64,000 nt of DNA from assembly GCA_029237695.1 (NCBI GenBank), contig CM055265.1, positions 219,841,679 to 219,905,678 of the forward strand, given 5' to 3'. This document shows positions 5,004 to 25,174 of the stretch, piece by piece. The stretch is from Conchocele bisecta. Lineage: Eukaryota; Mollusca; Bivalvia; Lucinida; Thyasiridae. Each line of letters opens with the position of its first letter. The stretch's first letter is position 1. Made by a program: the position numbers and the translations under genes. The notes under the pieces were generated by a model. That model did no database searches. It was not told where the DNA came from and worked only from the letters and a program-made list of their open reading frames with translations.

Positions 5004-5528
5004 CATGAGGGTTTTGGCTACGAGAAGGACGGCCGCCCAGTAGGCGCAAAGCTGACACCCGGTCTTTGGAGTTCGAGAGCCCTCCAAGCTTTTGTCGCGT
5101 CGGAGCTTCATGGCCGAGCGAGCCTCACAATCTCGAAAGCCACCGGACTTGCGACCTTGACCATCGAGCCCGCAAACCGGGTAACGATCACCCCGCCGTT
5201 GGCCCTGCTTCTCGGTGTTACAACAACATACTCCAGCAACAACGGATGGTTTATCCCGGGCGAGCACGTCGGCGACGGCCCCATGGGCTTCGTCTTCACG
5301 AAAACGCTCAGGGTGCACGTGGATCAACTGGACGTGGACTCTCCTTGCGGTTGTGCACTCCAGCGACCGTTTCTATGGCGAGACCCTGACCTTAGACTCC
5401 CAACCCCCGAGATGAAACGTTTGGAATCTGGTCACATCCACGAATTGAATATCTCTATTCTCGATGATAAAGCGCAAGAATTAAAGAACGATTACCCGAT
5501 TTCAGCGGTTCTCGAAATAACAGAATAA
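5004..5528 (+). CDS. penton/minor-capsid-like protein of virus-like cassette copy 2
   Basis: The frame is open from the stop at 5001 to TAA at 5526. There is no clear ATG at its head, so the 5' end is probably truncated or frameshifted. The pattern is PPLALLLGV, a variable loop, then FVFTKTLRVHVDQLDVD and HIHELNISILDDKAQEL near the C-terminus. The order and spacing resemble the Polinton minor capsid at 21218-22116 (IYSDIVEYSIVG, then FDTIHINIRGDFGNPV). That suggests a vertex jelly-roll protein of the same broad DNA-virus lineage. This is inferred from visual pattern similarity and needs a profile or structure comparison. It is followed directly by the jelly-roll gene at 5575. Confidence 0.45.
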   Translation, partial: HEGFGYEKDGRPVGAKLTPGLWSSRALQAFVASELHGRASLTISKATGLATLTIEPANRVTITPPLALLLGVTTTYSSNNGWFIPGEHVGDGPMGFVFTKTLRVHVDQLDVDSPCGCALQRPFLWRDPDLRLPTPEMKRLESGHIHELNISILDDKAQELKNDYPISAVLEITE

Positions 5529-5574: not shown

Positions 5575-5975
5575 TTGATGGGGCAGTAATGAGAAGGATA
5601 TAGGGAAGGGTATCGCATGTCCGCACACATGCAGCGATTGCAAGCGTCATAACAGTTTGGACCGAGGAGCAGAGCGCACTGCGCATGGGGGGGGGGGATG
5701 TGGGGAAAAGCACGAATATTGATTTGTCAATGGCAATCTGCTCTGTCAACTTTAAGGAACATGCTACTACCGAAGTTCGAGTGAATCTCGTTCTGAACGG
5801 GGTAGAGCAGATGTCTGGCGTCACCAAGCATGTGGGACAGAGGTCATGGTTTACGATATTCGATGACACACCAATTAAAGTTTCCGCCGGGAGTGTTATT
5901 AACTTTGTTACAAAAATCGACGACCCATCGAGCTCCTCCACCGAGGTGGCACTGTTAATCGAGCTTGATTTATGA
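5575..5975 (+). CDS. jelly-roll/fibre-like surface protein of virus-like cassette copy 2
   Basis: The C-terminal 96 residues (from 5685) form an uninterrupted frame. It contains VNLVLNGVEQMSGVTKHVG, FTIFDDTPIKVSAGSVINFV and a closing ALLIELDL. This is an alternation of hydrophobic strands and loops, as in small trimeric jelly-roll knobs. The upstream part (SVITVWTEEQSALRMGGGD) is reached by a frame continuing back to about 5575, with a break near 5600-5640. A G9 run lies at about 5690. A partial second copy is at 1715-1909. The role as a virion surface protein is inferred. Confidence 0.45.
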
Positions 5976-6524: not shown

Positions 6525-6530
6525 CTCGCC
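6525..6530. repeat. target site duplication, left (CTCGCC)
   Basis: Identical to 25169-25174. The homologous site in copy 1 (about 2024-2031, CTCATCCG) has a single copy of this position, supporting duplication on integration. Confidence 0.93.
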
Positions 6531-6720
6531 AGTAGTAATGGGTGCCACAATGGCGTGTTTTGCTTTTTTTTGCCACTATGGCGTGTTTTTTTTTAACATG
6601 CGTTTTTACATAGACAACCGGTGTAAGGGTAAAATTGTCTATGTAAAAAACGCATGTTAAAAAAACCACGCCATAGTGGTAAAAAAACAAAACACGCCAT
6701 AGGTGGCACCCCTTATTACT
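6531..6720. repeat. nested terminal palindrome, left end
   Basis: The outermost 18 bases pair with 6703-6720 (16 of 18 match). Inside this, GGCGTGTTTTG pairs with CAAAACACGCC, and a further arm of about 45 bp (GCCACTATGGCGTG, AACATGCG, ACATAGACAA) pairs with its complement around a short loop at about 6617-6634. The whole terminal 190 nt can fold on itself. Confidence 0.85.
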
Positions 6721-7023
6721 CCCATTATCAGGGGTGGTAACTTCTTGTATTACTCTATAGTGGTATAAAACCACGCCATAGTGGCACCCCTGAAGCATTT
6801 TGATGGAGATTCGTGAATTTTATCCGGTTGGTAACTTCTTGTATTCGTGAATTTTATCCGGGGATGGAAACTTCTTGTATCACGCTATAGTGGCACCCCC
6901 TGAACCATTTTGATGGAGATTCGTGAATTTTATCAGGGTGAAAACTTCTTGTATTACGCTATAGTGTCACCCCTGAACCAATAAGAGCAGTATGTAAGGT
7001 ATTCATTTCTTGAGAAAGTGTAT

Positions 7024-7039
7024 AACCCTGAAAAGGGCT
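7024..7039 (-). terminator. histone-type 3' stem-loop after gene 7056-7268
   Basis: On the minus strand this reads AGCCCT-TTTC-AGGGTT, a 6-bp stem (one G-T pair) with a 4-base loop, preceded by ACAAC. It lies 16 bases past the stop codon. The length, loop and position match histone mRNA 3' stem-loops. Confidence 0.7.
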
Positions 7040-7055
7040 GTTGTCTTTTAGTAAA

Positions 7056-7268
7056 CTATGTAGTGTTCAGTTTACTCCACATACAATCGACGACTATTTG
7101 ACAGGCCTCACAAATTTCGAGGTCTTTAAGGTCCTCTTCTTCAAAAAAGCCTTCGTCGAGCTCTGGACAATTGTGTTCTTCCCCTTGAGTGTCCAACACT
7201 GCATAACATTTTCTACACTCTATATAACAGTGTTCCCCACACATAGAGCATTCCCCGTTCTTCTGCAT
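7056..7268 (-). CDS. small Cys-rich acidic zinc-binding-type protein (left TIR gene)
   Basis: A 70-residue protein with CSMCGEHC and CRKC near the N-terminus and CEACQIVVDC near the C-terminus, separated by a very acidic stretch (DEGFFEEEDLKDLE). Paired CxxC motifs suggest a zinc ribbon or knuckle. It has its own CCAAT/TATA promoter block (7311-7400) and a histone-type stem-loop 16 bases after the stop. It lies in a block present only in the left terminal repeat. Function unknown; a regulatory protein expressed early in the cycle is plausible. Confidence 0.6.
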   Translation of the reverse strand: MQKNGECSMCGEHCYIECRKCYAVLDTQGEEHNCPELDEGFFEEEDLKDLEICEACQIVVDCMWSKLNTT

Positions 7269-7310
7269 TCTTATGTAGTTGGTTGAACAGTTTAATGACT
7301 AATGAAATAT

Positions 7311-7400
7311 AGCTGTATGTTTTTACTTTTATACACATCAGAAGGATTGACCTACTTTTGATAGTTTAGTCAATTTTCAGATTTTCGACCAATCAGAAAG
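7311..7400 (-). promoter_or_regulatory. P1-type promoter block (CCAAT + TATA) for gene 7056-7268
   Basis: On the minus strand the block runs from CCAAT (7389-7393) through ACTAAACTATCAAAAGTAGG to TATAAAAG (7326-7333). It is about 80 to 90% alike to the blocks at 9451-9520, 14937-15004 and 16066-16125. Confidence 0.75.
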
Positions 7401-7643
7401 CGCGTTGTATACGCGTTTTTTTGTGATATCCTAATGGATTGTACTGTTCCTGTATATAATTTTCAAATATTTTTGATAACTCCAATATTATCAAATACAT
7501 ATGAAAATTTCCTAAAATAATTTTCATCCACTTCTGACAACTCTAATATTGACACAAGTTGATGAAAATAAATATTGATTGTGAATCAATATTTTCAATT
7601 TATGGTGGGGAAAATTGAATACAAGATATGTAAAGTTTTTATA

Positions 7644-7682
7644 ATATTTTATTGAACAATAACATATTTACAACATGTATGT
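7644..7682 (-). terminator. shared AATAAA 3'-end module after gene 7690-8250
   Basis: On the minus strand this reads ACATGTTGTAAATATGTTAT then TGTTCAATAAAATATTATA, with AATAAA at 7648-7653. It is the same module as at 9568-9616, 14338-14386 and 24539-24577, and lies just after the TAG stop. Confidence 0.8.
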
Positions 7683-7689
7683 TTAACAT

Positions 7690-8250
7690 TCAAGAGGTAT
7701 GATCTATTTCTATTGGTTCAAAAATTGCCTTTGTCCCTGTAGCGTGATCACTGTCCCTGAAGCGTGAGCAATGGGAACATACACACATTGATTCAGTCTC
7801 ACTAATCTGTACTATATCCATTGGTTCAAAACTGTCTCTATGTCCAGGAAGCATGAGCAATGGGAGCGTTAGTCCAGACAATGTTTCAATCTTTACACTA
7901 TTCCATAAGTACGGTTTACAGCGGTTAAATAAGAAATTCACAATATTGTCATTTTCAACAACTTCGTTTCTCCATTGTTCAAATGTTATTTGTTCTACTT
8001 TATTCCTTGAATCTTTGGAGAACCCCGTTGTTGCTAATAAGGCTTCCTTGAACTCTTCAAACATCTCTATTTTCTCTAATTCATCCTTGATGATCTTGGG
8101 TGTAAGATATTGTTCAATTGATACTTTTAGTTTGAAAGCAAGTATCAATGCTTTCCTGTATGGTATGTGATTTAATAGATCTGTCAGAGGATTCATTGTT
8201 ACTGGTTTCCAGATTGCTATGTGATTTAATAGATCTGTCAGAGGATTCAT
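7690..8250 (-). CDS. Polinton hypothetical protein with duplicated N-terminus
   Basis: A 186-residue protein of unknown family. The first 11 residues (MNPLTDLLNHI) are repeated at residue 19, because a DNA segment of about 52 bp is tandemly duplicated (8167-8202 and 8219-8254), so either ATG could be the start. The middle is helical and charged (KIIKDELEKIEMFEEFKEAL). The C-terminal part has CVCSHC. It ends in the shared AATAAA module, inside the inner part of the left terminal repeat. Confidence 0.6.
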   Translation of the reverse strand: MNPLTDLLNHIAIWKPVTMNPLTDLLNHIPYRKALILAFKLKVSIEQYLTPKIIKDELEKIEMFEEFKEALLATTGFSKDSRNKVEQITFEQWRNEVVENDNIVNFLFNRCKPYLWNSVKIETLSGLTLPLLMLPGHRDSFEPMDIVQISETESMCVCSHCSRFRDSDHATGTKAIFEPIEIDHTS

Positions 8251-8325
8251 TGTTTCTTCAACTGTGTCTATTCATAGAATGATTCAGTTATATCCGTTCC
8301 TACTTTTATAGTCTTCAGTAACAAT

Positions 8326-8661
8326 CTACTTCCAGGATTGTTTGACTTGTTTCTTCAACTGTTCCAACCACGATTCATCGGGTCTAAAACGGAGTTTGTT
8401 TTTAATTTGTACCCACAGTCTGTATGCTTCCAATTTCTCTTGATCGTCCAATGTCATATCTTTGAGAATTGGATACCATTCTTCCATAATTTTATGGGGG
8501 TCTAATTTCTGTAGAGTGGTCAATATGAATAAATCTGTTTGTTCATCTTGATCTGTGAATAAGCACAGTTGATGTCGTCATTGACTTGGATGTTCAACCT
8601 GACATCCATAACAATTATCATTTACTTCTTTTTTAATTAATGATTGAAGTTGTTCAACCAT
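8326..8661 (-). pseudogene. Polinton conserved small protein (CxxC...HPSQ), internal stop
   Basis: The minus-strand frame starts at ATG 8661 (MVEQLQSLIKKEV), passes NCYGCQVEHPSQ, meets an in-frame TGA at 8578-8580, and continues in the same frame to TAG at 8326 (LDPHKIMEEWYPILKDM, EAYRLWVQIKNKLRF). The frame is open further upstream for about 30 codons. A CxxC followed by HPSQ and a downstream H and C is a pattern I associate with a small conserved Polinton gene. Its role is unknown. No nearby promoter block of either recurrent type was seen. Confidence 0.6.
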
Positions 8662-8916
8662 ACATCTTTTGAATGTGTCATGTATTGTCTTTCTTTGTCG
8701 GGGTATTTCTCGGGATTTCTTTATCAGACAAACATCGTTTGTAACCACAACTCATAATTATGCCCCATCATTTTTATTGTTTATTATCTAAAAGTACTGT
8801 ATAATATTTGTTGTTTCTACGACGAATACGTTGAAGATAATGGCTTATGACAAAATGTAAAACGTTTATATAGGTACAACTGATTATAAGTTTTTTCTAT
8901 TCTAAATATTTGTATT

Positions 8917-8932
8917 GGCCCTGAAAAGGGCC
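8917..8932 (-). terminator. histone-type 3' stem-loop after gene 8953-9370
   Basis: The minus strand reads GGCCCT-TTTC-AGGGCC with A-rich 5' flank ACAAAA. This is a perfect 6-bp stem and UUUC loop as in animal histone mRNAs. It lies 21 bases past the stop at 8953. Confidence 0.85.
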
Positions 8933-8952
8933 TTTTGTCCTGATCGTCTAAT

Positions 8953-9370
8953 TCAAGTTTGCTGATTATCATATTTGTTCACTCTTTCAATGTATTTTTT
9001 ATGGCCACCACAATCCCGGGATCCACAGCTTCTACATGTTAAGAGAAATCTGTGTGTAGACCTTTTGCTGGGTTTTCCAGGAATCGCAAATGATGGTGTC
9101 GGAGCTCGTCGGAGCTCGTCGGATCTCTTCATCCCAGTCTTCTTGCTGGGGTTGTACACTCGCTCTCTCATCATTACCCCAGTTTTCTGTAGGCTTCGAC
9201 ATAGTGTTCGATGAAACATGTGTTCTGTTGATATCGTTCAGCAAATCATCGAACTTGTTCCAGTTACATACGAAGCTATTCGAGGCTTCTCTTGCTTCAA
9301 ATTTCAAATTATAGTAAGGAAATAAATTCCTAACCACGTACTCATGAAATAAATATATTAAAGTTATCAT
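8953..9370 (-). pseudogene. Polinton small zinc-knuckle protein, frameshifted by a 10-bp repeat
   Basis: The N-terminal frame starts at ATG 9370 (MITLIYLFHEYVVRNLF) and is polar (NWGNDERASVQPQQEDWDEE). The C-terminal frame ends at 8953 with THRFLLTCRSCGSRDCGGH, a Cys/His cluster. The two frames meet in three tandem copies of a 10-bp unit (GTCGGAGCTC, about 9098-9127), so gain or loss of one unit explains the shift. It has the P1 promoter upstream and a perfect histone-type stem-loop downstream. Family unknown. Confidence 0.6.
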
Positions 9371-9450
9371 CCTAGATGTGTAGAGTCAGGGTTGTACTCT
9401 GAACAATGTAATGCTTCTCATAGAATGTAAATTAATGATTTTATGATCGT

Positions 9451-9520
9451 CTTTTATATACACCAGAAGGATTTACCTACTTTTGATAGTTTAGTCATTT
9501 TTTCAGATTTTCGTCCAATC
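9451..9520 (-). promoter_or_regulatory. P1-type promoter block for gene 8953-9370
   Basis: Minus strand: CCAAT is at 9515-9519, then ACTAAACTATCAAAAGTAGG, and TATAAAAG at 9451-9458, followed by ACGATCATAAAATCATTAAT. The same post-TATA sequence follows the block at 16066-16125. Confidence 0.8.
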
Positions 9521-9567
9521 AGAAAGTGTGTTGCAAACACGTTTTTTACAGTTAAGCTTGTTTATTT

Positions 9568-9616
9568 AACAATATTTTATTGAACAACAATATATTTACA
9601 ACATGTAATACATAGT
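9568..9616 (-). terminator. shared AATAAA 3'-end module of the DNA polymerase gene
   Basis: Minus strand: the module runs from TATGTATTACATGTTGTAAA to TTCAATAAAATATTG, with AATAAA at 9576-9581. It begins about 10 bases after the polymerase stop. The inverted copy at 14338-14386 is nearly identical, including the leading TATGTATTACATG. Confidence 0.85.
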
Positions 9617-9626
9617 GTATATTCAA

Positions 9627-12600
9627 TCAAAGTCTCAATGTGTTGTACCCGTATGGTACAGTATTGAAATTGTCAACAATGACACGTTTTGTGTACACAG
9701 ACCTAAATGTCTTGCTTTGACATTCACTCGTTACTGTTCTGTTTGCATGTCTCCTGATTTTACATGCATACACAACTTTCACTTCGGTACTTCGGTCCTC
9801 TGCACATTGAACATACGTGTCAAAGTTAACTACTTGACTTGTGTTGTAATCGAGTGTCAGTCCTTTAACTTTACATTTGGATTTTATTTCCCCAGCTTTT
9901 GTTAGCAACTTGTATGCATAACTCTTTGGTCCTATTCCCCTAAAACTTATTATTTTATTTCCCGGTTCTTCATCAGTCCATTTACCAAGCCTACTATTGA
10001 TAATGGGGGGGGGGTTCCACGAATTCTGTTTGTGTATGAACATACAACTGTCTGTATCGAAATATAAGACACGCTCATTTAACTTTTCCAAAACACTGTA
10101 TAGTTCAAGTCTTGCATATGCTGTTACATATGATCCCACTACAATGTTTGATGTTGCATGGGATTCAATGTGTTCAAGTCTAGTTTCATAGTTAACCAAT
10201 ATGAATGGACATTCATTATCAAATATGTCTACGTGTTTTACCATTATACATGGATTTGAAATCAAATCAAAATATTTTGAAGGATTATTGATGTATTCCG
10301 TTTGTGTCATGATTTCACGTTGTGCCAATTTACCCCATAAACAATTTAACATAATCTTGGCAAATGCTCTACGGCCAGTATTTGTTTGTATGTTTGATGG
10401 ATCAAGACAAATACCTTCAGCTTCTTTATAGTCCTTAACAATTTGTTCTTTGTCTTTTTCTGTTACACACCATCCTGGATAACCACTTGCTTCTTGTTTG
10501 ATTTTAAGAAAATTGTCCACATACCCCGAGAAAAAATCATTAGATTTTTCCGAAAAATGCCATACTTCATACACGTCTAACAACGTATAACCAAAGTCCA
10601 ATGCTTTAAACAATTCTATTGACACCCATGTACCAATCAAAGCTCGTTCTTCAATTGTATGTGTACACTTTGTAGAACTTCCTTCTGCACATGTTCTACA
10701 TAATGGAAACATGAGTTTGTTATTACAATGTGTCGGTAACACTGGATGAAATAGATTGTCCGGAGGAAGAACTTTACATTTTATCAAACCCTCATACTGT
10801 CGGATGTTTTCTATATCAATATTTTCTTTTGTCAAAATAGCGGGGTGTCCTATCGGATATTCTTTGTGTTTACATACAAATGGATATAATGAACAAATAT
10901 CAATATATTTGATTTCATCATCTGAATTTTCTTCAATATCATATTTAATTTTTATAGCATTACAACGTCCACCAAACAATCCTTCCCTAGGTTCAATCGG
11001 ATTACAGTTTGAAAAGAATTGTTCGATCAACTTTTTGTATTCTTTATCAGTTTTCATTTTTAAATCGAACTCATGTTCCCATATAGTGTGAATTTTGTAA
11101 CCACTTACACTGAAATATTCCAATCTTTCAAATGTTTGAGAATATAAATTTTGCATTGATTCTCCATTTACCGGGTTTTTTAGATTACGATTTGGGTAAC
11201 ATTTAGGACAACCATGCCACAGATCACCGAGAAACTCATAGATAGTATTTGATTCTTTGTGAAACCCATCTACAGTATAAGGACCAATTTGGTATTCACC
11301 ACCATTTTTTGCATGTTGGATAACAATATTGTTTTCGTGTGCAATACTTTGCATCCATCGAATACCTTTCATTGAAAATTTGCGTTTAATCGGATCTCTG
11401 CTTGAAATAATTCCGATCTGATTACTTGGCATATATTTGTTACGCCAAACTTTGTTACATGCGTCAGCGATTGTACTGGCTTCTAGAAACGGATCTATAC
11501 CCCCATATTCCATGAATACCTTCCTGAATTCTCCACAACCACGTCTCAAAATATCTACATCCGATCGACAATATTTTTCCATTTCTTGTTTGAAATTGAA
11601 ACAATCGTTGTTTTTCACACGTTCGTTATACCATGATAAAAACTTTTCCCTAGCAGTTATCCCCATTGAATCTGGTTTATAATAAGAGACATCAACGTAT
11701 GGACCAACATAAGCCGCAAATTTATCAGTATTTGCCCAATGTGGAAAATATCCCTTAGCCATTTCTTTCAATTCAAAGGTTTCTGGAAATTTTGCCAATC
11801 CTGAATTTATGAAATTATAGGAATCAATCAATCGTATACCTCCAACTTCCATAACCATGATGTTATTACCGTTCATTATTACCTTCAGTTGTAACATCCC
11901 CTTTTCAATGAGATGATGAAGTATGAACTGACCATCATACGCTTTGAAATTATGGGCAATAGCTGTAGCACCTTTATGTTGTTTTGAAAACAACCAATTA
12001 CAAAATTCTGTCAAAGTATTTTTTCCTTCAAATACTACTTCTCGTCCTTCAGGAAACCGACTATAACATTCACAATTGAATTCTAATGGTTCATTGATAC
12101 ATTCATCACAAGCTCTGTGTGCAATACAATAGTTAGGAATGTGTACACCAGTGTATTGTTGACATTCCAAATCATAAAATATGAAAAACGGTTCATGATC
12201 ATCTTCTTCAGTTTTGCTTTTATACTGCTGAATATGACATTTGTGGTCAAAATTAACAATCTCTTTACAAAATTTACATTTCTTCTTTCCTTTACATGTA
12301 TGATTCTTCTTGGAATCGGCAAACTTCCCTCCACATTTGCCGCAACATTTTATGAGCTGACAAATTGATTTCTTTTGTCGTCCTTCAATTTGTTTGTGAT
12401 TTGCAAAACACGTTCCACTATAAAATTTCCTAAGACAATCTTTACACTTGATACAATCTACCACATGACATTTTGTTTTGGAACGACATGCCTTACAAGA
12501 AGTAGGGCATATATGTGTTTCACGATTTTGGTAACCAACATTACACATCTCACAATAGTAATGACAGCCAAGAAATCCAACAATATTTGTAATACAGTCA

Positions 12601-13442
12601 TAATGATCTTGATTATAGTATACATGTATCACTTTGCTGTATGACTGAATTTCTGGATATTCAAACAACAATTCTGTTTTCACATGTTGTTGATGAATCT
12701 TGATCACATATTCTGGATACATATATTGTTGTATTTTCTTATATTCTTCAATTCCACAAGCTTTTTGTGGTGAAATTCCAACTTCATTCAATAATTTCTC
12801 TGCTTCAATACGTTGTAAAGGTCTTCTGGAATCCCTGATTACATGCCATCGCATATTCCATGTTGAAGAAACTTCTCTATTCGCATGACATTTTCCAACA
12901 ACAATAGCCCGGGCTAAACACATATTGTCTTTAGAATTTTCAATTTTCACAACAGTTTTCTTTTTTTTCGTGAAAACTCGAGAATCAATTTCAGAGGTCA
13001 TCTTCTTTCTTCCAGAACCTGTTGGCATTTTGGTAAACGTTGTTTCGATTGTCATCTCACCATCGTTCAAATTAAAATCCATATTCGATTGTATAACTTT
13101 TTCTATTTCTTGTAACAATATGTTCCCATTCAAATCTTCAACATTCAAGAATGGAATCCCCATCTTTAATGCAGGATGATTTAATACTACCCTGATTTTG
13201 TCGTGTGGATCACCATCAATTCGTTCGATGATTTGATGAATGATATCATCAAATAATACCCCAACGAAATTTTGAGGGTGTTCGTCTACATCAAATTTCA
13301 TGAATGTTGTTTTAAAAACTGATGATTCAGTTCTGAATTTTCTTGATCTTCGACATTTTTCTTGTATAAGATCATAAAATCTTCTAACATCTGGTGACTC
13401 TTCGGTTTCACTCTCGGTGTCCGAGTATGGTACAAGTGGCAT
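9627..13442 (-). CDS. polB: Polinton protein-primed family-B DNA polymerase
   Basis: An intact 1271-residue frame from ATG 13442. It would replicate the linear element by protein priming. Exonuclease motifs: FYDLEC (422-427), NFKAYD (499-503) and YCRSDVD (624-630). Polymerase motifs: A, YIDICSLYP (846-854); B, KIMLNCLWGK (1029-1038), with Trp where Tyr is usual; C, YFDTDS (1127-1132); KxY at about 1173. Residues 710-750 (GGEYQIGPYTVDGF, LWHGCPKCYP) match the endonuclease-like insert seen in Polinton polymerases. Residues 293-402 are a Cys/His-rich region with about eight CxxC pairs. The C-terminus (RSVYTKRVI, PYGY) looks complete. It is divergent from the gene at 13570, with an AATAAA module at the 3' end. 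Its integrity contrasts with the broken neighbours. Confidence 0.97.
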   Translation of the reverse strand: MPLVPYSDTESETEESPDVRRFYDLIQEKCRRSRKFRTESSVFKTTFMKFDVDEHPQNFVGVLFDDIIHQIIERIDGDPHDKIRVVLNHPALKMGIPFLNVEDLNGNILLQEIEKVIQSNMDFNLNDGEMTIETTFTKMPTGSGRKKMTSEIDSRVFTKKKKTVVKIENSKDNMCLARAIVVGKCHANREVSSTWNMRWHVIRDSRRPLQRIEAEKLLNEVGISPQKACGIEEYKKIQQYMYPEYVIKIHQQHVKTELLFEYPEIQSYSKVIHVYYNQDHYDCITNIVGFLGCHYYCEMCNVGYQNRETHICPTSCKACRSKTKCHVVDCIKCKDCLRKFYSGTCFANHKQIEGRQKKSICQLIKCCGKCGGKFADSKKNHTCKGKKKCKFCKEIVNFDHKCHIQQYKSKTEEDDHEPFFIFYDLECQQYTGVHIPNYCIAHRACDECINEPLEFNCECYSRFPEGREVVFEGKNTLTEFCNWLFSKQHKGATAIAHNFKAYDGQFILHHLIEKGMLQLKVIMNGNNIMVMEVGGIRLIDSYNFINSGLAKFPETFELKEMAKGYFPHWANTDKFAAYVGPYVDVSYYKPDSMGITAREKFLSWYNERVKNNDCFNFKQEMEKYCRSDVDILRRGCGEFRKVFMEYGGIDPFLEASTIADACNKVWRNKYMPSNQIGIISSRDPIKRKFSMKGIRWMQSIAHENNIVIQHAKNGGEYQIGPYTVDGFHKESNTIYEFLGDLWHGCPKCYPNRNLKNPVNGESMQNLYSQTFERLEYFSVSGYKIHTIWEHEFDLKMKTDKEYKKLIEQFFSNCNPIEPREGLFGGRCNAIKIKYDIEENSDDEIKYIDICSLYPFVCKHKEYPIGHPAILTKENIDIENIRQYEGLIKCKVLPPDNLFHPVLPTHCNNKLMFPLCRTCAEGSSTKCTHTIEERALIGTWVSIELFKALDFGYTLLDVYEVWHFSEKSNDFFSGYVDNFLKIKQEASGYPGWCVTEKDKEQIVKDYKEAEGICLDPSNIQTNTGRRAFAKIMLNCLWGKLAQREIMTQTEYINNPSKYFDLISNPCIMVKHVDIFDNECPFILVNYETRLEHIESHATSNIVVGSYVTAYARLELYSVLEKLNERVLYFDTDSCMFIHKQNSWNPPPIINSRLGKWTDEEPGNKIISFRGIGPKSYAYKLLTKAGEIKSKCKVKGLTLDYNTSQVVNFDTYVQCAEDRSTEVKVVYACKIRRHANRTVTSECQSKTFRSVYTKRVIVDNFNTVPYGYNTLRL

Positions 13443-13478
13443 GTTGAATTTTATAATAAAGTATTAATCAATTTACAA

Positions 13479-13567
13479 CAGCTTATATACTATCGTTAAA
13501 CCGTGACGTCTATAAAAGAAGCCACAAATTCCATATGGTCATCATTAGTCTACTGAACTCTGAAGCG
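13479..13567 (+). promoter_or_regulatory. P2-type promoter block for gene 13570-14287
   Basis: CTATCGTTAAACCGTGACGT is followed by TATAAAAG (13511-13518) and AAGCCACAAATTCCATATG, then ATTAGTCTACTGAACTCTGA just before the ATG. The same sequence recurs at 15477-15561. TGACGT resembles a CRE/ATF site. Regulation is not proven. Confidence 0.75.
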
Positions 13568-13569
13568 AT

Positions 13570-14287
13570 ATGGACTCTCAAGCGACAGATCGATCTTCCA
13601 TTCAACTACAAAAACACGAGGAACATTTTGCTGACTATTTCGAAAGTATAAAATATTGGCACAAAGGATGCGAAATGAATTTATATGTAAATCCGTTTAC
13701 TCATGAAGTTGAATTCAGCAACATACCGAAAACCTATTCTATAAAACATAATGGGAACTTTGTTGGATCGTTTACATCTTACAATTATTCGGGCGACTCT
13801 GAGTACCTGATTTCTACAGGAAAGAGGTTTACAAAATTCAGCATCGATGAGAAATATGGAGGGGGTGAAATATCACCTAACAGATGTTACATTTGTCAAT
13901 CAACGGAGCATTGGGATAATAAATGTAGCCAGAAGCTACAAGGAAAGTACATGGATGTGTTTGTGAATCCATATTCTCATGAAGTTCAAATTTTATTCTC
14001 CTAGTATTACCCAAGACCTGTGTGTTGGAAAATTCATGTCTTATAACAACGAAGAGAGTCATATGAAGCTGCCAAGAAATGTTATGTATGATGAATGTTT
14101 CATCTGTAAATCGAAATCACATTGGGCTTGTGATTGTGACCAGAAACCCACGCCTAACACAGTGGATGTTAAGCCCATAGAGAAACCAGTGAACAATCGT
14201 AAACGTAAACGCCAAGATGAAGCGAGTGTTCAAATCAAGAAGAGGAAAATTGCGGTTCCAGTCAAGAAGATGAAAATTGACTTTTAG
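13570..14287 (+). pseudogene. Polinton duplicated zinc-knuckle protein with basic tail, frameshifted
   Basis: The first frame (13570-14004) has NLYVNPFTHEVEF and a CxxCx4Hx4C knuckle, CYICQSTEHWDNKC. The second frame (13979-14287) carries the second knuckle, CFICKSKSHWACDC, and a lysine/arginine-rich C-terminus (KRKRQ, KKRKIA) like a nuclear localisation signal. VNPxxHEV and SYN motifs recur before each knuckle, so the protein is an internal tandem duplication. The frame changes at about 13985-14005. It is driven by P2 and ends at the AATAAA module. A nucleic-acid-binding role is likely from the knuckles. Confidence 0.65.
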
Positions 14288-14337
14288 ATTCGGTTGATTT
14301 ATTTATCTTGTTAAATTAATACAATTTTGAATAGACA

Positions 14338-14386
14338 CTATGTATTACATGTTGTAAATATATTGTTGTTCAATAAAATATTGTTA
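14338..14386 (+). terminator. shared AATAAA 3'-end module after gene 13570-14287
   Basis: CTATGTATTACATGTTGTAA to GTTCAATAAAATATTG, with AATAAA at 14372-14377. It is an inverted near-copy of the polymerase 3' end (9568-9616). Confidence 0.85.
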
Positions 14387-14500
14387 AATGAATACAAGTT
14401 GAAATGTATTTTCTAGTTTTGTTATTTATCATTTTTATAATTTATATGGTTAATTCATATGATTTATAAAATGCAAGTGTTTCTTTCTGGAAAATATTGT

Positions 14501-14516
14501 GGTCCAGAAAAGGACC
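14501..14516 (-). terminator. histone-type 3' stem-loop after gene 14530-14730
   Basis: Minus strand: AAAC then GGTCC-TTTTCT-GGACC and ACA. The stem has 5 strong pairs, and the sixth (T-T) is lost. The second position pair differs from the other copies but still pairs (T with A). It lies about 14 bases past the stop. Confidence 0.65.
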
Positions 14517-14529
14517 GTTTGATCTCTGT

Positions 14530-14730
14530 CTAATAGAATTCAGACAGATCAGGATATAAGTTATTCAATGTAACTTTCCAAACAATTTTTTGTTTGGAAG
14601 GCCAATGATAACCACGTCTTGCAAAGAATTGTTGTAATAATTCTTTATTTCTCTCTTTTTCTTCATTAACATCATTTTTCCTGGAGAATACAATGTTTCT
14701 CAAACGGTGGAAGAATTTCTTGATCTGCAT
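14530..14730 (-). CDS. Polinton small basic protein, unknown
   Basis: A 66-residue basic helical protein (MQIKKFFHRLRNIVFSRK, then KERNKELLQQFFARRGY). No family is recognised. Three CCAAT-type boxes lie 80 to 135 bp upstream, and a histone-type stem-loop follows the stop, so it belongs with the other stem-loop genes although its promoter lacks the full P1 block. Confidence 0.5.
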   Translation of the reverse strand: MQIKKFFHRLRNIVFSRKNDVNEEKERNKELLQQFFARRGYHWPSKQKIVWKVTLNNLYPDLSEFY

Positions 14731-14936
14731 TCTGGTATGTAAGAATGAATAGAATGAATACTATACGCTTTAGATTCAGAAATGATTTCAGCTATGATTT
14801 CATTGGCTAAAAATTAGAGGATTTGATTGGTTAAGGATTCTGCCCCTCTCATTGGATGATTTTCAATCCGTTTTTTACAGCCAAGCTTGTGTAAACAAAC
14901 TTTGATTACAAAACGCGTTTTACAACACGCTTTCTG

Positions 14937-15004
14937 ATTGGACGAAAATCTGAAAAATGACTAAACTACCAAAAGTAGGTCAATCCGTTTGATGGGTATA
15001 AAAG
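14937..15004 (+). promoter_or_regulatory. P1-type promoter block for gene 15056-15322
   Basis: ATTGG (14937-14941), ACTAAACTACCAAAAGTAGG, GTCAATCCGTTTGATGGG and TATAAAAG (14997-15004). It is a plus-strand copy of the blocks at 7311 and 9451. Confidence 0.8.
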
Positions 15005-15055
15005 CATGTGTTTTTTTAACACATACTTCACATGTTTCATTGAACACTCAAAGAA

Positions 15056-15322
15056 ATGAATACCGAACGAAGCAATATGATGGGAAGGCGGATCACAGAT
15101 TTGGTTGAAGTCGTAGGGTCGATGCAGAAAGACATAGAAACGCTGCAAATGGTTACGGCTGACCTGTTGAGGAAAATAAAGGAAAAGCCAAAACCTGCTT
15201 ACAAAGAATTTGAAATGGAGGACGGCAAGAGTTTTACGACAGAAGCAAAACCTGACACTACAGGCGTTTTGAGAGTTAAAACTCGAGAATCAAACAACAA
15301 ATGGCGGTCGTCCTACCATTGA
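15056..15322 (+). CDS. Polinton small coiled-coil protein
   Basis: An 88-residue protein. Residues about 10-45 form an amphipathic helix (ITDLVEVVGSMQKDIETLQM), probably a short coiled coil, followed by a polar charged tail. The P1 promoter is upstream. A perfect histone-type stem-loop lies 38 bases after the TGA, within the usual distance for histone mRNAs. Function unknown. Confidence 0.6.
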   Translation: MNTERSNMMGRRITDLVEVVGSMQKDIETLQMVTADLLRKIKEKPKPAYKEFEMEDGKSFTTEAKPDTTGVLRVKTRESNNKWRSSYH

Positions 15323-15360
15323 ATATTAGTTTTGTACAGTTGTACACTCTAAGCAAAAAC

Positions 15361-15376
15361 GGCCCTTTTCAGGGCC
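15361..15376 (+). terminator. histone-type 3' stem-loop after gene 15056-15322
   Basis: CAAAAAC-GGCCCTTTTCAGGGCC-ACCACA: stem, UUUC loop, A-rich 5' flank and ACC 3' flank all fit the animal histone 3' stem-loop consensus. A clear purine-rich downstream element was not seen. Confidence 0.88.
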
Positions 15377-15476
15377 ACCACACATTATTACGAAAATATT
15401 ACTTTGCAATTTATATCCTAATAACTTTGTATATTGTATCATTAGTTGTTAAACATTAAGCATTTTGTAATAGCTT

Positions 15477-15561
15477 CTATACTATCGTTACATCGTGACG
15501 TTTATAAAAGAAGCCACAAATTCCATATGATCATCATTAGTCTACTGAACTCTGAAGCGAA
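15477..15561 (+). promoter_or_regulatory. P2-type promoter block for gene 15596-16037
   Basis: CTATACTATCGTTACATCGT, GACG, TATAAAAG (15503-15510) and CATCATTAGTCTACTGAACT match the block at 13479-13567 over about 85 bp. Confidence 0.75.
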
Positions 15562-15595
15562 AGCATTACATTGTTCAGAGTACAACCCTGCTAAA

Positions 15596-16037
15596 ATGGA
15601 TCAACTAATAAAACATTGTGATCAGCATCCGGAAGTCGAAGAATGTAAATGTTTCGATTTTCTCAAAAATTTGTACTATAGGCATAGTAAACGGAGAATA
15701 CACTATTAATAATGTAAACATTTATAAATCACCCAAATATCAATATTATCCTTTCATAGGGTACATAACAAACAATTCTAGATTTATACCGTTTGGTATT
15801 TGTCCAAAGATAACTGTGATAGAAAAAAATAAAATTTATAGGTTAGTAAGTTCTAGAACATACGGGAAGGATAGTCAGATTTACTTTGACAAGGATCTTA
15901 AACCTTTGCTTCATCTATACAGCCATAAAATTCCTTTTTCGGGGGCTGTCAACATAGAAACTAAAATTATTAAGAGATATCACAGTATCCCTAAATTAAA
16001 TGTGAGAAAAGAGTACTGTAAATGGAATATTGGTTAG
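15596..16037 (+). pseudogene. Polinton hypothetical protein, frameshifted
   Basis: ATG at 15596 starts MDQLIKHCDQHPEVEECKC. The frame closes at 15709, while an overlapping frame continues from about 15670 (VNGEYTINNVNIYKSPKYQY, YPFIGYITNNSRFIPFGI) to TAG 16037. The break lies near an A5 run at about 15663. The product would be about 145 residues. Family unknown. P2 lies directly upstream. No recurrent 3' module is seen after it. Confidence 0.5.
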
Positions 16038-16065
16038 CAGCTATCGTTTTGTAAGACACACTGTG

Positions 16066-16125
16066 ATTGGTCACTTGATTTTTATCAATTTCTAAGTAGG
16101 TCAATCCTTCTGATGGGTATAAAAG
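16066..16125 (+). promoter_or_regulatory. P1-type promoter block for gene 16161-16682
   Basis: ATTGG (16066-16070), AGTAGGTCAATCCTTCTGAT, GGG and TATAAAAG (16118-16125), then ACGATCATAAAATTCATTAA as downstream of the block at 9451. The part between CCAAT and AGTAGG is shortened. Confidence 0.78.
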
Positions 16126-16160
16126 ACGATCATAAAATTCATTAATTTACATTCGATACT

Positions 16161-16682
16161 ATGGCTGACAACCGAAGTTACGATTTTGTCACTCAAGATT
16201 TTGATATATTAGCAGAGACGATGAATGAAATATACCAACCAACCTTCCAGCCGCCACAACAACAACAACAACTACAACAGCAGCCAACTGTTCCTGTATA
16301 CATTCCAATAGAGAAGAAGAAAGAAGATTCTATGATATTGAAAGAACTACAGAAAATGAACAACAATACAGAAAGAATATTGCAGAAACTAGAGAACATC
16401 GCATCACGACATAGTGTTCAACTGGACCGCATGACAGACACATTATCAAAGAAACTAGAGAAACAGTGTGAAAATCGGGACTTGACATTTAACACAAAGC
16501 CATTGAAAGTGCCCATCAAGTTTGAATTGGACAAGAAAACAGTGGCACAGATCAGTCAACATGCAGAAAGGGCCCTGTGTGATACAGTTGACGAAAAAAT
16601 ACATTCACATAAAAGTGGGGTTGGTGCACATCGTAAACACATTCGTTCAGAAAAAGAAAATCATTTCATTCCACGAAAATAA
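16161..16682 (+). CDS. Polinton Gln-rich coiled-coil protein
   Basis: A 173-residue protein. A glutamine-rich stretch at about residues 33-46 is followed by a long helical region (MILKELQKMNNNTERILQKL, about residues 58-110) typical of a coiled coil. The tail is polar and basic. It has the P1 promoter and a histone-type stem-loop 193 bases after the stop. No homologous family is recognised. Confidence 0.6.
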   Translation: MADNRSYDFVTQDFDILAETMNEIYQPTFQPPQQQQQLQQQPTVPVYIPIEKKKEDSMILKELQKMNNNTERILQKLENIASRHSVQLDRMTDTLSKKLEKQCENRDLTFNTKPLKVPIKFELDKKTVAQISQHAERALCDTVDEKIHSHKSGVGAHRKHIRSEKENHFIPRK

Positions 16683-16683
16683 A

Positions 16684-16860
16684 AAAATAAAAGTACCAGT
16701 ACTCGTGCAAAAAGAAAAAAAAATTGTAAAAAAAAAATTGTAAAAAAAACAATTGTAAAAAAAAAATAAAAACATATTGTACCAGTACTCGTGTCTTTTT
16801 TATTTTTAAAATTGTACCAGTACTCGTGTCTTTTTTAAAAATAAAAATAACAGTACTCGC
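16684..16860. repeat. A-rich tract with four GTACCAGTACTCGTG-like units
   Basis: The unit TACCAGTACTCGTG occurs at about 16692, 16779 and 16813, with a truncated AGTACTCGCACC at about 16851, separated by poly-A/poly-T runs. It fills the 3' untranslated region between the stop of 16161-16682 and its stem-loop. Confidence 0.7.
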
Positions 16861-16874
16861 ACCTTTACCCAAAC

Positions 16875-16890
16875 GGCCCTTTTTAGGGCC
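16875..16890 (+). terminator. histone-type 3' stem-loop after gene 16161-16682
   Basis: CCCAAAC-GGCCCTTTTTAGGGCC-ATCCCA: perfect 6-bp stem with a UUUU loop. The CCAAA-type 5' flank fits histone genes. Confidence 0.82.
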
Positions 16891-16985
16891 ATCCCAAACT
16901 ATTCGAACAAAATTCCTTTTCAAATAAAACATTGCTATACACATGATAGTATATCATTATACATCTGGACCTTGTACTGTAAACA

Positions 16986-17655
16986 ATGGAGAACGAAGAC
17001 CTATTTTCTTTGTTATTTCAACATCCCTGTAACATTTATATAGCAGGTCCAAGTGGATGTGGAAAAACTGAAATTGTACAAAAGATTATTGATTATCGCA
17101 AAGATTTATTTAATATTGTACCCGAAAAAATAATATGGTGTTACAAAGAATGGCAACACATCTATACTATTATGCAAGAAAATTTCAATTGTCCTCAAAT
17201 TTATTGAAGGTATCCCAGATGATGAAAATGAAATTGTATCCGATGTAACAATTCCACATCTTGTAGTATTTGATGATATGTTAGGAGAAAAAGATGAAGA
17301 AAAAATAAAATTGTGGTTTACAAGAAAAGGTCATCATAGAAATTCAAGTGTAATATATATTACACAAAATATGTTTCAACAAAATAAATCGAGTAGAACT
17401 ATAAGTCTTAATTCTCGTTACATGATTTTATTTAGAAATGAACGTGATGGGTTATAAATTAAAATATTATCACGTCAAATTCAAAGTCCGCACTTAATTT
17501 CAGCCTACAATGATGCTACTTCTCAGGAACATGGTTATTTGTTAATTGATTTTCCATCAAGAATTAAAAAACAATTTCGTTTAAGAAGTGACATTTTTCA
17601 TCGTTGGGTTACAGATAAGGATGTTAGAGGACCTACTATTTATTCTCCAATATAG
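16986..17655 (+). pseudogene. Polinton packaging ATPase (FtsK/HerA-like), broken
   Basis: The N-terminal frame has a Walker A motif, IAGPSGCGKTEIVQK (about residues 19-33). It ends at 17205, and the frame beginning near 17197 continues with Walker B, HLVVFDDMLGE. It then shows an ITQN sensor-like motif, an in-frame TAA at about 17456, and an intact C-terminus to TAG 17655. Family knowledge: this ATPase would pump DNA into the capsid. Two breaks make this copy non-functional unless they are sequence errors. It precedes the small core-protein genes and capsid genes, as in other Polintons. Confidence 0.88.
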
Positions 17656-17697
17656 TAATATAGATATCAGTATTGTACTTTCTATCAAGGTACCAAC

Positions 17698-18060
17698 ATG
17701 GCTTTCTCATACACATCAGGAAATATTATTCATGCTTTAAGAAATTTGAGTGATGAACAACATAAACTTACAAGAGAAATAATATTGAAATCTGGGTTAA
17801 AAGAGATATTGAAATGGTTTTCAGTAGCTGCTCAAAATATAGTTGAAAATAAAATAAAATTACCAAAACAAACAGTGCGTTTTATAGAAAGAAATAAAAA
17901 AGATGTTAAACAATTAGCGGATCCTACAGTTGATGATGATACAAAGAAAAAAATAATATTAAAACCTGGTGGTGGAGGATTTTTAGGTGGTGTAATTATT
18001 AGAAGTTTACTTCGCTGGACAGGTACAAAAAACGTGAAAAATAGAAAACCGAAACGGTGA
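17698..18060 (+). CDS. Polinton conserved small basic protein with Gly-rich tail
   Basis: A 120-residue protein. It has a helical N-terminus, then QLADPTVDDDTKKKIIL and GGGGFLGGVI near the C-terminus. The order 'LAD, lysine-rich strand, GGFL' resembles small virion or core proteins I associate with Polintons, and the protein encoded at 18733-19126 has a similar ending. A frame shifted by one base continues past the stop (GDIDLHELTRLGFVD, 18057-18130), so the C-terminus may be truncated by a frameshift. Confidence 0.65.
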   Translation: MAFSYTSGNIIHALRNLSDEQHKLTREIILKSGLKEILKWFSVAAQNIVENKIKLPKQTVRFIERNKKDVKQLADPTVDDDTKKKIILKPGGGGFLGGVIIRSLLRWTGTKNVKNRKPKR

Positions 18061-18119
18061 TATAGATCTACACGAATTAACAAGACTAGGATTTGTAGAC
18101 ATACTAGACATTGAAGAAA

Positions 18120-18240
18120 ATCTTAAAGATTCATTTTGCTTTTTAGTTGTTTTCTTTTTAGTTGTTTTCTTTTGAGATTTTTTATTTCGTGTTTTCTTTT
18201 GTTTTTTAATTGTTTTCTTTTTAGTTTGTTTTTTGGTTAG
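18120..18240. repeat. T-rich imperfect repeat (TTTTCTTTTTAGTTG units)
   Basis: About five imperfect copies of a 15-17 base T-rich unit. On the minus strand this is an open lysine/threonine/glutamine-rich frame (KKTTKKK repeats). I cannot tell whether it is coding on the minus strand or simple-sequence decay. Confidence 0.5.
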
Positions 18241-18676
18241 TTTTCCCTCATCGACTGGGAAACCTCAGTTCACATCGACACCTATTTCCTTTAGATCACC
18301 ACAATTACCATTTACATCAACTTCTAGCAAATCTGGATCATCATACAATGTATCTTTCCCCAGTAATTCGGGTTCATTTGAGAGACAGCCTCCAAAAAAA
18401 AAGAAGTATAAATATAAACCTGAAATTGAAAATTGGTTTAGACTTGTTAATAAAACAACAAAAGAACATGAAAAACTGTTACAGGAATATAATGCATTGG
18501 ATGAACATCCGATAGCTAGGTTTTCACCGTTAAGAACACCTTTGAGATCTCCTAAGACCAAAGAAGTTGTCAGAAACAAACTTATTCAAAAAGAAAAGGA
18601 AATAAAACATCTAAAAGATTTTGCGTTTAAAAATCCAGAATTAAGAGCAAAAATTAAAAGCTACTTAGCTGTATAA
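18233..18676 (+). CDS. Polinton hypothetical protein, 5' end unclear
   Basis: The frame has no internal Met, and the only start candidates are non-ATG, so the 5' end is probably lost. It is Ser/Pro/Thr-rich at first (SFPSSTGKPQFTSTPISF), then has a basic patch (PPKKKKYKYK), a charged helical part (KEHEKLLQEYNALDEHPIAR) and a helical C-terminus ending YLAV. It lies in the structural-gene block and could be a core or scaffold protein, but no family is recognised. Confidence 0.45.
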   Translation: MVSFPSSTGKPQFTSTPISFRSPQLPFTSTSSKSGSSYNVSFPSNSGSFERQPPKKKKYKYKPEIENWFRLVNKTTKEHEKLLQEYNALDEHPIARFSPLRTPLRSPKTKEVVRNKLIQKEKEIKHLKDFAFKNPELRAKIKSYLAV

Positions 18677-18732
18677 AATACAGTTATTAATTAATTTTGT
18701 ATCATTCAATATAAAGTATTGTTAGTATAAAG

Positions 18733-19126
18733 ATGGGTAAGGTCAAGAATAAAACCAGTAAAAAGAAACCATTAATTAAAAAACATGGTGCTATGCTTTT
18801 GGCTATAGCTAATGAACCTAAAAAATATCGTGAAAAATTAATAAAAAATTCATATAATTAAGTGTATTTGCGAATGTTGTCACAATCTCTTAAAAGGCAT
18901 TGTCACACTTACATCTGATCAGAAACATAAATTGTATCCTAAGCGTAATCATCTCAGACAACTTGTATCAAAATCAATTTCAATTAAGAAAAAGAAAAAT
19001 ATTATAAATCAGACAGGAGGTATTTTACAATTTTTACTTCTATTATTACCATTAATAGGTAAAGCTGTTCTAGGTGGCGCACTTGGTGTTGGTGCGCGAG
19101 CAGGTATTCGAGCTCTAGTTAAATAA
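18733..19126 (+). pseudogene. Polinton conserved CxCxxC / Gly-rich C-terminal protein, frameshifted
   Basis: The first frame (18733-18861) encodes LIKKHGAMLLAIANEPKKYR. The second frame (open from about 18850 to TAA 19126) encodes CICECCHNLLKGIVTLTSDQ, a lysine-rich helix (ISIKKKKNIINQTGG) and a hydrophobic Gly/Ala-rich tail (LLPLIGKAVLGGALGVG). The frame shifts near 18855. The helical lysine-rich stretch followed by GG and a hydrophobic tail parallels 17698-18060. I regard it as a known but uncharacterised Polinton gene. Confidence 0.65.
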
Positions 19127-19795
19127 TGTCAGTCCGGAAAATGGCACTTGTTCCTTTTCATTTACTGGAAGAAATGAATAAATGGAAAATAGAACAAAGT
19201 CAAAAACCTCAACTTTCACCGGATCCACAAATTACAAATACAGCTAAACTTCAAAAAAAATTATCTAACCTTTTATAAAGAACAGATTTATCGGAAAGTG
19301 AAAAGGTAAGACAGCACGGAGAAATTACATTACCTAAACTTCAGAAAAAATTATTTAAAAAAGTTTTAGAACCTCAACATGTTACAGTAAATGAAAGTAC
19401 AAAAAGACCACTTAATGATAGGATTTTACAAAGTATACCAAAAACAATGCAAAGAAAGGCAGGAGAAACTTCTTTTAAGCATGCTGAAAGATAACCCAAA
19501 AATCAGTTGGGATGAAAATGGTTTAGTATCATATAAAGGAAAACTTATAAGGGGGTCAAATATTATTGATTTAGTTAATGACACTTTACGTCAAAGAAAA
19601 GGATTTAACCCCAGAGGCTGGGAGACATTCAGTACAGCTTTACAGGAACTCAATATACCACAAGACGTAGTTGGTAATAGACAACGATGGAACTGGATGC
19701 ATAAATATCAAACTGATACATCTGACATTGAGTCAGATTCAATATTTAGTACACCTAAAACAGTAATGAAATTTCAGTCACCCCAACTGGTATAA
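19126..19795 (+). pseudogene. Polinton conserved protein of unknown function, two breaks
   Basis: ATG at 19126 overlaps the stop of the previous gene (TAATG). The frame reads MSVRKMALVPFHLLEEMNKW, meets in-frame TAA at 19276, continues to about 19470, then changes frame into the open frame ending at 19795. The C-terminal part (ISWDENGLVSYKGKLIRGSN, GFNPRGWETFSTALQELNIP) is the best conserved. I associate the 'GSNI..L..D, PxGW..F...L...NIP' pattern with a widespread Polinton gene next to the integrase. Biochemical role unknown. Confidence 0.62.
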
Positions 19796-19826
19796 AAAGA
19801 AAGTCTGTTTCAACATATCTTAAAAA

Positions 19827-20932
19827 ATGGGAGCCTTATTAAAGCATAAAGAGAAGAAACTTAATTCATTACTAAAGAAAATATATTATGATCCAAAAAG
19901 TTCAATTGCCTACACAAGTGCAAAACACTTGTATGATTCAATTAAACGAATAAACACATTTTCAGATGTTAGATTAAAACATATACAAGAATGGTTGAGT
20001 AGACAGAAAACATATACACTTCATAAACAAATTCAAAGACGTTTTACACGTCGTAAGACAATAGTAGGAGGTATCGATCAACAATGGCAGGCTGATTTGG
20101 CAGATATGCAACAATTCTCAGGTGAAAATGAGAATCAAAGATATCTATTGTGTGTAATAGATGTATTTTCAAAATATGCATGGGTCATACCCCTTCCTAA
20201 CAAAACGGGGAAAAAATTGATTAACGCGTTTGCTTTGATACTAAAAACATCAAAACGCAAGCCACGTTCTTTACAAAGCGATAAAAAGGAACGGAATTTA
20301 AAAATAAAGAATTTCAACATTTCTTGAAATCTAAGCACATTCATTTTTTCACAAACGAAAACCCTGAAACTAAAGCAAGTATAGTTGAACGATTTCAAAG
20401 AACTTTAAAAACACGTATGTGGAAATATTTCACATATCATCAAACTAGAAAATATATTGATATTTTACAAAATATTGTTGATGGATACAACCGAACATAC
20501 CATCGTAGTATTAAGATGGCCCCAATTTCTGTCAATACCTCAAATGAAATTGAGGTTACACATGCATTGTATGGAATGAAACAAGCTATTTCAACCAAAA
20601 ACAAATTACATGTCGGTGATTTAGTTCGTATTAATAAAACAAAATGAACATTTGAAAAGGGTTATCTACCAAACTGGACGAAAGAATTATTTGAAATATT
20701 TCATATTAATAAAAGTTTACCACCAACTTACAAAATTGAAGATCTTGATGGTGAAAAAATAATGGGTACATTTTATGGAAAGGAAATTCAAGGTATAAAA
20801 GATGATGAAATATATGAAATTGAATCAGTTATTGCTCGACGTACAAGACGTGTAGGTAATAAAACAATCAAGGAAACTAAAGTTCGTTGGATGGGTTATC
20901 CGTCAAAGTTTGATAGTTGGATTTCAACATGA
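19827..20932 (+). pseudogene. Polinton retroviral-type integrase with chromodomain, broken
   Basis: The frame from ATG 19827 has an HTH/zinc-like N-terminal region, then the catalytic core. The first Asp is in WQADLADMQ (residue 90), then LLCVIDVFSKYAWVIPL, and the second Asp is in LQSDK (about 152). The frame changes near 20290. The next frame holds the catalytic Glu (SIVERFQRTLKTRMWKYF), then an in-frame TGA at 20645-20647, and the C-terminus to 20932. The end is a chromodomain (YEIESVIARR, KVRWMGYPSKFDSWI). Family knowledge: it inserts the element, giving the 6-bp duplication seen here. Confidence 0.93.
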
Positions 20933-22116: not shown

Positions 22117-22118
22117 AA

Positions 22119-22520: not shown

Positions 22521-22528
22521 AATAAAAA

Positions 22529-23834: not shown

Positions 23835-23846
23835 TATTGGACAATT

Positions 23847-24481: not shown

Positions 24482-24538
24482 TATTGCATGCACTTTTGTA
24501 AAGATCAAATATGAATATCATATCTGGTCTATAATTCC

Positions 24539-25168: not shown

Positions 25169-25174
25169 CTCGCC
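25169..25174. repeat. target site duplication, right (CTCGCC)
   Basis: Direct repeat of 6525-6530, immediately outside the right terminal inverted repeat. Confidence 0.93.

Follow-up and report, generated by a model that had tools for sequence, protein, structure and literature searches.

At least five non-histone genes of a Polinton in the bivalve Conchocele bisecta end in the stem-loop of host histone mRNAs

A Polinton inserted in the genome of the bivalve Conchocele bisecta (1.89 Gb) carries at least five non-histone genes, here named A-E, that end in the stem-loop of host histone mRNAs. The element lies within a window of 64,000 nucleotides (nt; C1:219841679-219905678), which is the whole stretch of DNA that was analyzed. 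Seen directly are the sequence parts themselves, their homology to the host (promoters of three genes and the 3' ends), their conservation and covariation, a host SLBP gene and a candidate U7 gene. We propose that a Polinton lineage captured replication-dependent histone signals of its host, at least one H2A promoter together with histone 3' ends, which would serve as cassettes for five small non-histone genes. Host SLBP would bind the stem-loop of the A-E pre-mRNAs, the U7 small nuclear ribonucleoprotein (snRNP) would cut them in place of polyadenylation, and the resulting mRNAs would be made during the DNA replication of the cell, when a DNA virus needs them. Capture and use of the H2A promoter and histone 3' ends, giving SLBP/U7-processed and replication-coupled mRNAs, is in our judgment very probable. 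It is likely, at a lower level of confidence, that an integrating DNA virus lineage expresses a non-histone regulon in time with host S phase and as true histone-type mRNAs (H2A promoter, stem-loop bound by SLBP, cleavage by U7, no poly(A)); the S-phase timing is drawn from histone biology. Our confidence in this proposal rests mostly on the 3' ends.

An earlier sequence-only reading had placed five histone-type stem-loops beside these genes. A search of the 64-kb window with the pattern GGCCCTTTTCAGGGCC, allowing up to three mismatches, recovered all five at the claimed positions and strands and in the sense orientation, as compared to 0.14 matches expected, and none of 100 shuffles reached five. 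The stems were found to begin 16 (A), 20 (B), 13 (C), 38 (D) and 192 nt (E) after the stop codon, a range of 13-192 nt where 14 to 193 had been reported. All five have an A-rich 5' flank, a TTTC or TTTT loop and a GAA at a nearly fixed distance. Site D, which had been described as a full match to the histone consensus, has a perfect stem, an ACCAC flank and a score of 40.2 bits with RF00032 (Histone3; 15356-15401, plus strand), above the gathering score of 34. None of the other four sites reached the gathering score (33.2, 32.6, 26.1 and 23.1 bits; E 3e-6 to 0.02), and no sixth RF00032 match was listed in 4000-27000 at E up to 10. A second covariance model, covering the stem-loop and downstream element, was trained on 11 host histone 3' ends alone, among which the labels H1 and one H2B were assigned by cluster position. 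This model scored the five sites at 49.4, 41.1, 37.1, 36.6 and 34.9 bits (E 7e-9 to 2e-5), with the next-best match in the window at E 0.47. The five sites score above chance with RF00032, with the host-trained model and in the shuffled pattern search. Sites B, C and D can be aligned to host histone 3' ends beyond the stem itself, and the site D region (15343-15386) also matches positions 3270-3315 of host locus L031, just downstream of an H2A-like locus.

The earlier reading proposed looking in related Polintons for the motif downstream of the same genes, and among copies within the host genome it was present. Counting the window as a row, the stem-loop was found in 8/8 rows at site A (five perfect stems, or four in the per-site table, where one row is split by a gap), 8/8 at site B (seven perfect), 16/17 at site C (13 perfect, one deleted), 21/21 at site D (20 perfect) and 13/13 at site E (10 perfect, two with two mismatches and one with one). 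The per-site table left out host loci L031-L036, locus L023, which is the window itself, and alignments spanning the stem by less than 20 nt. Because the site D copies were picked by stem-loop score, conservation at D is biased. The stems at 7024 and 14501 had been said to differ in sequence and yet mostly pair; this holds in full for the former, which pairs completely as RNA with one G-U, while the latter has one mismatch, most simply explained as private decay given the 13 perfect stems among 17 site C rows. Less biased are sites A, B, C and E of those copies, 20 promoter-ascertained stretches and six pPolB-ascertained stretches. The promoter-ascertained set, comprising the 20 of 29 copies of promoter D that are absent from the RF00032 list, has a stem-loop of at least 26 bits in 19 cases, a fully paired stem in 14 and one deletion. 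Four of the six pPolB-ascertained stretches (76-95% identical) reach site D, and all four have the stem-loop, mutated in two (20.1 and 26.9 bits). The genome-wide RF00032 list holds 75 scored of 257327 first-look candidates, such that absence from it means little; a listed match stood at the expected place in 13 of 37 pPolB copies (7/8 on contig C1), in 11 of 40 promoter copies and in one copy with 75% pPolB identity.

With the host-trained model, 14 stretches around seven other copies gave 33 matches (E ≤0.022), and 33 sources including the window gave 95 (E ≤0.05); the latter include sites counted twice via overlapping loci and reduce to 55 distinct rows. In these rows 97.6% of 330 cells pair, as compared to 5.1 to 66.2% in slid versions, and none of 500 shuffles reached the pairing percentage, the number of double-change cells (20) or the covariation score. 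Double-sided changes occur at three of the six pairs, G-C to A-U in 6 rows and C-G to U-A in 11 and in 3. Some subfamilies (L004, L011, L030 and others) have a further stem-loop, GGCTCT/AGAGCC. In copy L021, a frame resembling the start of gene B ends in a D-type stem-loop (1967-2069), and an extra D-type 3' end lies ∼460-475 nt beyond the first in some copies (L021; also L016, L022, L026, L027 and L028); cassettes seem to have recombined among copies.

Downstream of the stem, all five Polinton sites have a GA(A/G) that starts at +14 to +16; in a comparison of eight host ends, its start lay at +14 to +17. Zero of 20000 shuffles placed it in +13..+16 at all five sites, positions that were picked after viewing the data. 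The host genome contains clustered H3, H4, H2B and H2A loci, with intact H4 genes (L007, L008) terminating in AAACGGCCCTTTTTAGGGCCACATATATTTTCAAGAAAGAAAC, as well as an SLBP gene (best of five PF15247 matches, 58.7 bits). A genome pattern made of the complement of the host downstream element plus an Sm-like site matched three places, versus one for the reversed control. The candidate U7 gene, L083 (C2:116290475-116290624, minus strand), has by eye a U7 layout of TTTCTTTCTTG and TTTTTTGTCTAG followed by TTTCTGG/CCAGAAA. Its 5' end outpaired shuffles with five of eight host ends (two H4 and one H3 at -12.3 to -12.5 kcal/mol, one H3 at -8.5 and H2A at -8.9), the H3/H4 part being partly circular because the pattern came from the H3/H4 element; pairing with the three ends labeled H1, H2B and H2B was not significant. 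At the position where host ends pair, it also pairs with site C of the Polinton (-8.7, p 0.003) and with its site A (-7.8, p 0.005), and significant pairing was seen in 0/4 poly(A)-gene controls.

The putative U7-type downstream elements and the H2A-type promoters are histone-like features that go beyond the earlier stem-loop observation. The element was compared by blastn with six 10-kb host histone stretches, with 45 kb of window flanks serving as the control. At E < 0.01, the element matched only at promoters A (7325-7426), B (9454-9547) and D (14900-15005), at stem-loops B-E with their flanks, and at one AT-rich stretch of 47 bp. The control flanks matched the host stretches too, at repeats; among the matches listed, all but three fell in L034 (two in L032 and one in L033). 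The best promoter matches (A, 89.5% over 76 bp; D, 86.8% over 91 bp; B, 79.2% over 96 bp) all involve a single block that follows an H2B locus and lies at the end of L031. This H2A promoter block precedes all six H2A-like host loci found by tblastn, one of which matches H2A at 94.6%. Apart from deviations in single rows, the aligned promoters have in common a TGATTGG CCAAT box, TCTGAAAA, AAACTA, AAGTAGGTCAATCC and TATA. Gene E has a 32-bp core in common with A (97%) and D (94%), as well as a CCAAT box. Promoters A, B and D carry GACTAAACTA(C/T)CAA, as compared to GGCGAAACTACCGA in three of the six host copies and, with an additional base, in one more; the common variant would fit a single capture followed by copying within the element. 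We infer that transfer ran from host to element because the block is a feature of the host H2A loci found and because both the H2A block and the stem-loop are missing from 4 kb next to the pPolB of a distant Polinton in this genome (L056, C1:154691500-154695499; one stretch of one copy). By eye, this stretch holds zinc-finger-like and ATPase-like frames beside pPolB.

Several observations weigh against the proposal that genes A-E make histone-type mRNAs. Five of the six H2A-like host loci look damaged, with a match to H2A of only ∼42-46% across most of the locus. No histone-like promoter was found for gene C by blastn against the six host histone stretches, and the gene E promoter matches the host clusters over only 16-20 bp, before H2B. 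Gene E also has an AATAAA 3 nt past its stop codon and ahead of its stem-loop, making it the weakest case of the five. Among the promoter-ascertained copies the stem is not fully paired in 6/20; where near-identical copies have broken stems, this has the look of dead insertions undergoing ordinary decay. As to covariation, the alignment was fitted to the model, three pairs with double changes were also reached by 95/500 shuffles, the pair types number 6 against a shuffled mean of 6.9, and the rows trace to few events, namely sites A and C and the GGCTCT site. The U7 gene stays a candidate, since L083 scores 11.1 bits with RF00066 against a cut-off of 34 and does not fold better than shuffles over 80 nt. 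It was derived from a pattern built on the host element, its pairing with sites B, D and E was not significant, and a genome-wide RF00066 search, in which the control was silent too, did not find U7.

The ends could instead have no role in S-phase timing and serve for SLBP-based export and translation in the absence of a poly(A) tail, or let the mRNAs evade a poly(A)-linked control that acts on foreign transcripts. The stem-loop and downstream core common to host histone ends would suit such a use. We consider it unlikely, since the H2A-type promoters on three of the five genes, together with the promoter core on a fourth, point to the histone programme and not to the RNA end alone.

It is also conceivable that histone promoters were taken as strong promoters, the stem-loops being carried along or redundant, and that most transcripts end at later poly(A) signals. 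Passenger capture would account for the early AATAAA of gene E, for the stem mutations that accumulate in copies and for an AWTAAA found 167-284 nt after the stop in B, C and D, although in DNA this AT-rich such a signal occurs within 400 nt for 17 of the 21 frames examined, so that AWTAAA alone says little. It fits poorly with stem-loops placed 13-38 nt past the stop in four of the five genes, with stems that differ in sequence with compensation, with the listed stem-loop at the expected place in the copy with 75% identical pPolB, and with gene C, which has a stem-loop and no recognizable H2A promoter. We regard this explanation as improbable. Least credible is the notion that these short GC hairpins within an AT-rich viral genome act as DNA or, like those of mimiviruses and virophages, as generic transcription-end hairpins unrelated to SLBP, as all five are in sense with the TTTC/TTTT loop, A-rich 5' flank, GAA spacing and a host-model match, and B, C and D align with host 3' ends past the stem.

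Table 1. Positions of the Polinton, its histone-type genes and signals, and its poly(A)-type features within the window. HDE, histone downstream element; aa, amino acids.
Feature	Position	Strand	Remarks
Polinton insertion	6531-25168	.	Terminal inverted repeats; target-site duplication CTCGCC at 6525-6530 and 25169-25174
Site A stem-loop	7024-7039	-	AGCCCT/AGGGTT, six RNA pairs including one G-U; HDE-like TCAAGAAATGAA next
Gene A	7056-7268	-	70 aa, Cys-rich, several CxxC pairs
H2A-type promoter of gene A	7325-7426	-	CCAAT box, AAGTAGGTCAATCC, TATA
Related poly(A)-type cassette	7637-7679	-	
Site B stem-loop	8917-8932	-	6-bp stem, perfect
Gene B	8953-9370	-	Two overlapping frames here (frameshift)
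H2A-type promoter of gene B	9451-9547	-	Homology to host H2A promoters
Related poly(A)-type cassette	9561-9626	-	Follows pPolB
pPolB (PF03175)	9627-13442	-	No stem-loop
Poly(A)-type 3' cassette	14327-14392	+	After frames 13570-14287
Site C stem-loop	14501-14516	-	GGTCCT/TGGACC, one mismatch; HDE-like CCAGAAAGAAAC
Gene C	14530-14730	-	66 aa
H2A-type promoter of gene D	14900-15005	+	
Gene D	15056-15322	+	88 aa
Site D stem-loop	15361-15376	+	Perfect stem, 3' flank ACCAC
Promoter core of gene E	16094-16125	+	Common to A, B, D: AAGTAGGTCAATCC..TATAAAAG
Gene E	16161-16682	+	173 aa
Site E stem-loop	16875-16890	+	Perfect stem; AATAAA upstream of stem-loop
Related poly(A)-type cassette	24534-24578	+	

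Genes A-E may work like histone genes but are not histone genes, as no recognizable histone appears to be encoded: the tested frames gave no histone match in Pfam, and C, D and E gave no Pfam match above cut-off. They are probably early genes. A second class in the element consists of four genes (orf7690, pPolB, the 13570-14287 frames and the protease) that lack a stem-loop and end in a common poly(A)-type cassette, whose AWTAAA lies 36 to 84 nt past the stop. Gene B, frameshifted in the window, is represented in other copies by unbroken 135-aa frames; a C..CGSRDC..H motif is conserved in the C-terminal part of its protein, for which two distant homologues turned up in the protein collection (45% over 70% and 51% over 52%). 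A protein search with gene D found no homologues, and the idea that its product derives from H2A received no support from Pfam. No LXCXE motif was present in the element frames examined, a few minus-strand entries excluded.

The terminal inverted repeats (TIRs) of the element start at 6531 and end at 25168, with the 6-bp CTCGCC duplication flanking both. Its pPolB passes the Pfam cut-off (PF03175, 144 bits), as does an adenovirus-type cysteine protease (PF00770, 24.7 bits versus 21.3). A retroviral-type integrase gave a weak match in a fragmented frame (PF00665, 27.7 bits, below the cut-off of 32.6), and a P-loop frame at 16983, frameshifted, matched the A32 packaging ATPase at 15.5 bits, below cut-off. 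The capsid-region frames at 21253-21813 and 22677-23834 had no match in a Pfam search. Frames 5004-5525 and 5604-5972, which look capsid-like, matched neither these frames nor Pfam and were rejected. The left-arm stretch 6899-7446, containing gene A and its stem-loop, has no counterpart of such length in the right arm. A second common block (13463-13568 and 15455-15560, 91% identical, with TGACGT and TATA by eye) stands before the 13570 gene and the 15598-16037 frames and is possibly another promoter class. Long near-perfect hairpins just inside both TIR ends (6559-6693 and 24991-25155) are probably part of the termini of the element; MIR/mir matches there (6561-6693 and 24991-25155) were below the gathering score and represent these hairpins. 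Elsewhere in the window, long tetranucleotide repeat arrays (ACCG/ACGG/ACAG) occupy 27062-28810, and a reverse transcriptase match (48687-49529, plus strand, 51.4 bits) and an endonuclease match (40985-41491, minus strand, 20.6 bits, below cut-off) are probably retrotransposon remnants.

Like metazoan replication-dependent histone genes, A-E have a 6-bp stem, a 4-nt loop, an A-rich 5' flank and an HDE-like element ∼15 nt downstream, as well as a short 3' untranslated region in four of the five and the H2A promoter block in three. Unlike them, they encode no recognizable histone and sit in a mobile virus-like element. The element resembles Polinton/Maverick elements and adintoviruses in its TIRs, 6-bp target-site duplication, pPolB, adenovirus-type protease and weak integrase match, and differs in the histone-type 3' ends on five small genes and the H2A-type promoters on three, of which the literature searched gave no report. 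Viral genes that end in hairpins occur in mimiviruses and virophages too, where hairpins define mRNA 3' ends. There the hairpin is not known to have a fixed sequence, and the mRNAs are polyadenylated; the hairpin of the Polinton is instead the host histone element. An RF00032 match has been claimed in coronavirus genomes, inside a coding region (PMC7786107), at 14.7 bits and so far below the gathering score of 34; in the part of that paper seen, neither a downstream element nor a promoter is claimed, unlike at the Polinton sites. In a paper on protists (PMC10120064), the words histone, stem-loop, polyadenylation and promoter are absent. In the open-licence literature no paper carried both 'polinton' and 'histone stem-loop', and titles and the starts of abstracts held no description of the idea. 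Neither pPolB nor a 14-protein pPolB alignment found a relative in IMG/VR. The histone stem-loop pattern gave none there in a first search; a second gave five loci, of which three passed the hairpin filter and none had a histone-like downstream element by eye, and these were taken as chance.

If the proposal is correct, these would be the first protein-coding mRNAs of the histone-type class that encode no histone, and the histone 3' end would be something that can be captured and spread as a cassette. Small mobile-element genes with a histone end, some of them with an H2A promoter, would offer natural test cases for what the SLBP/U7 pathway requires. Histone-type signals would also explain how a Polinton fits its gene expression to the DNA replication of its host.

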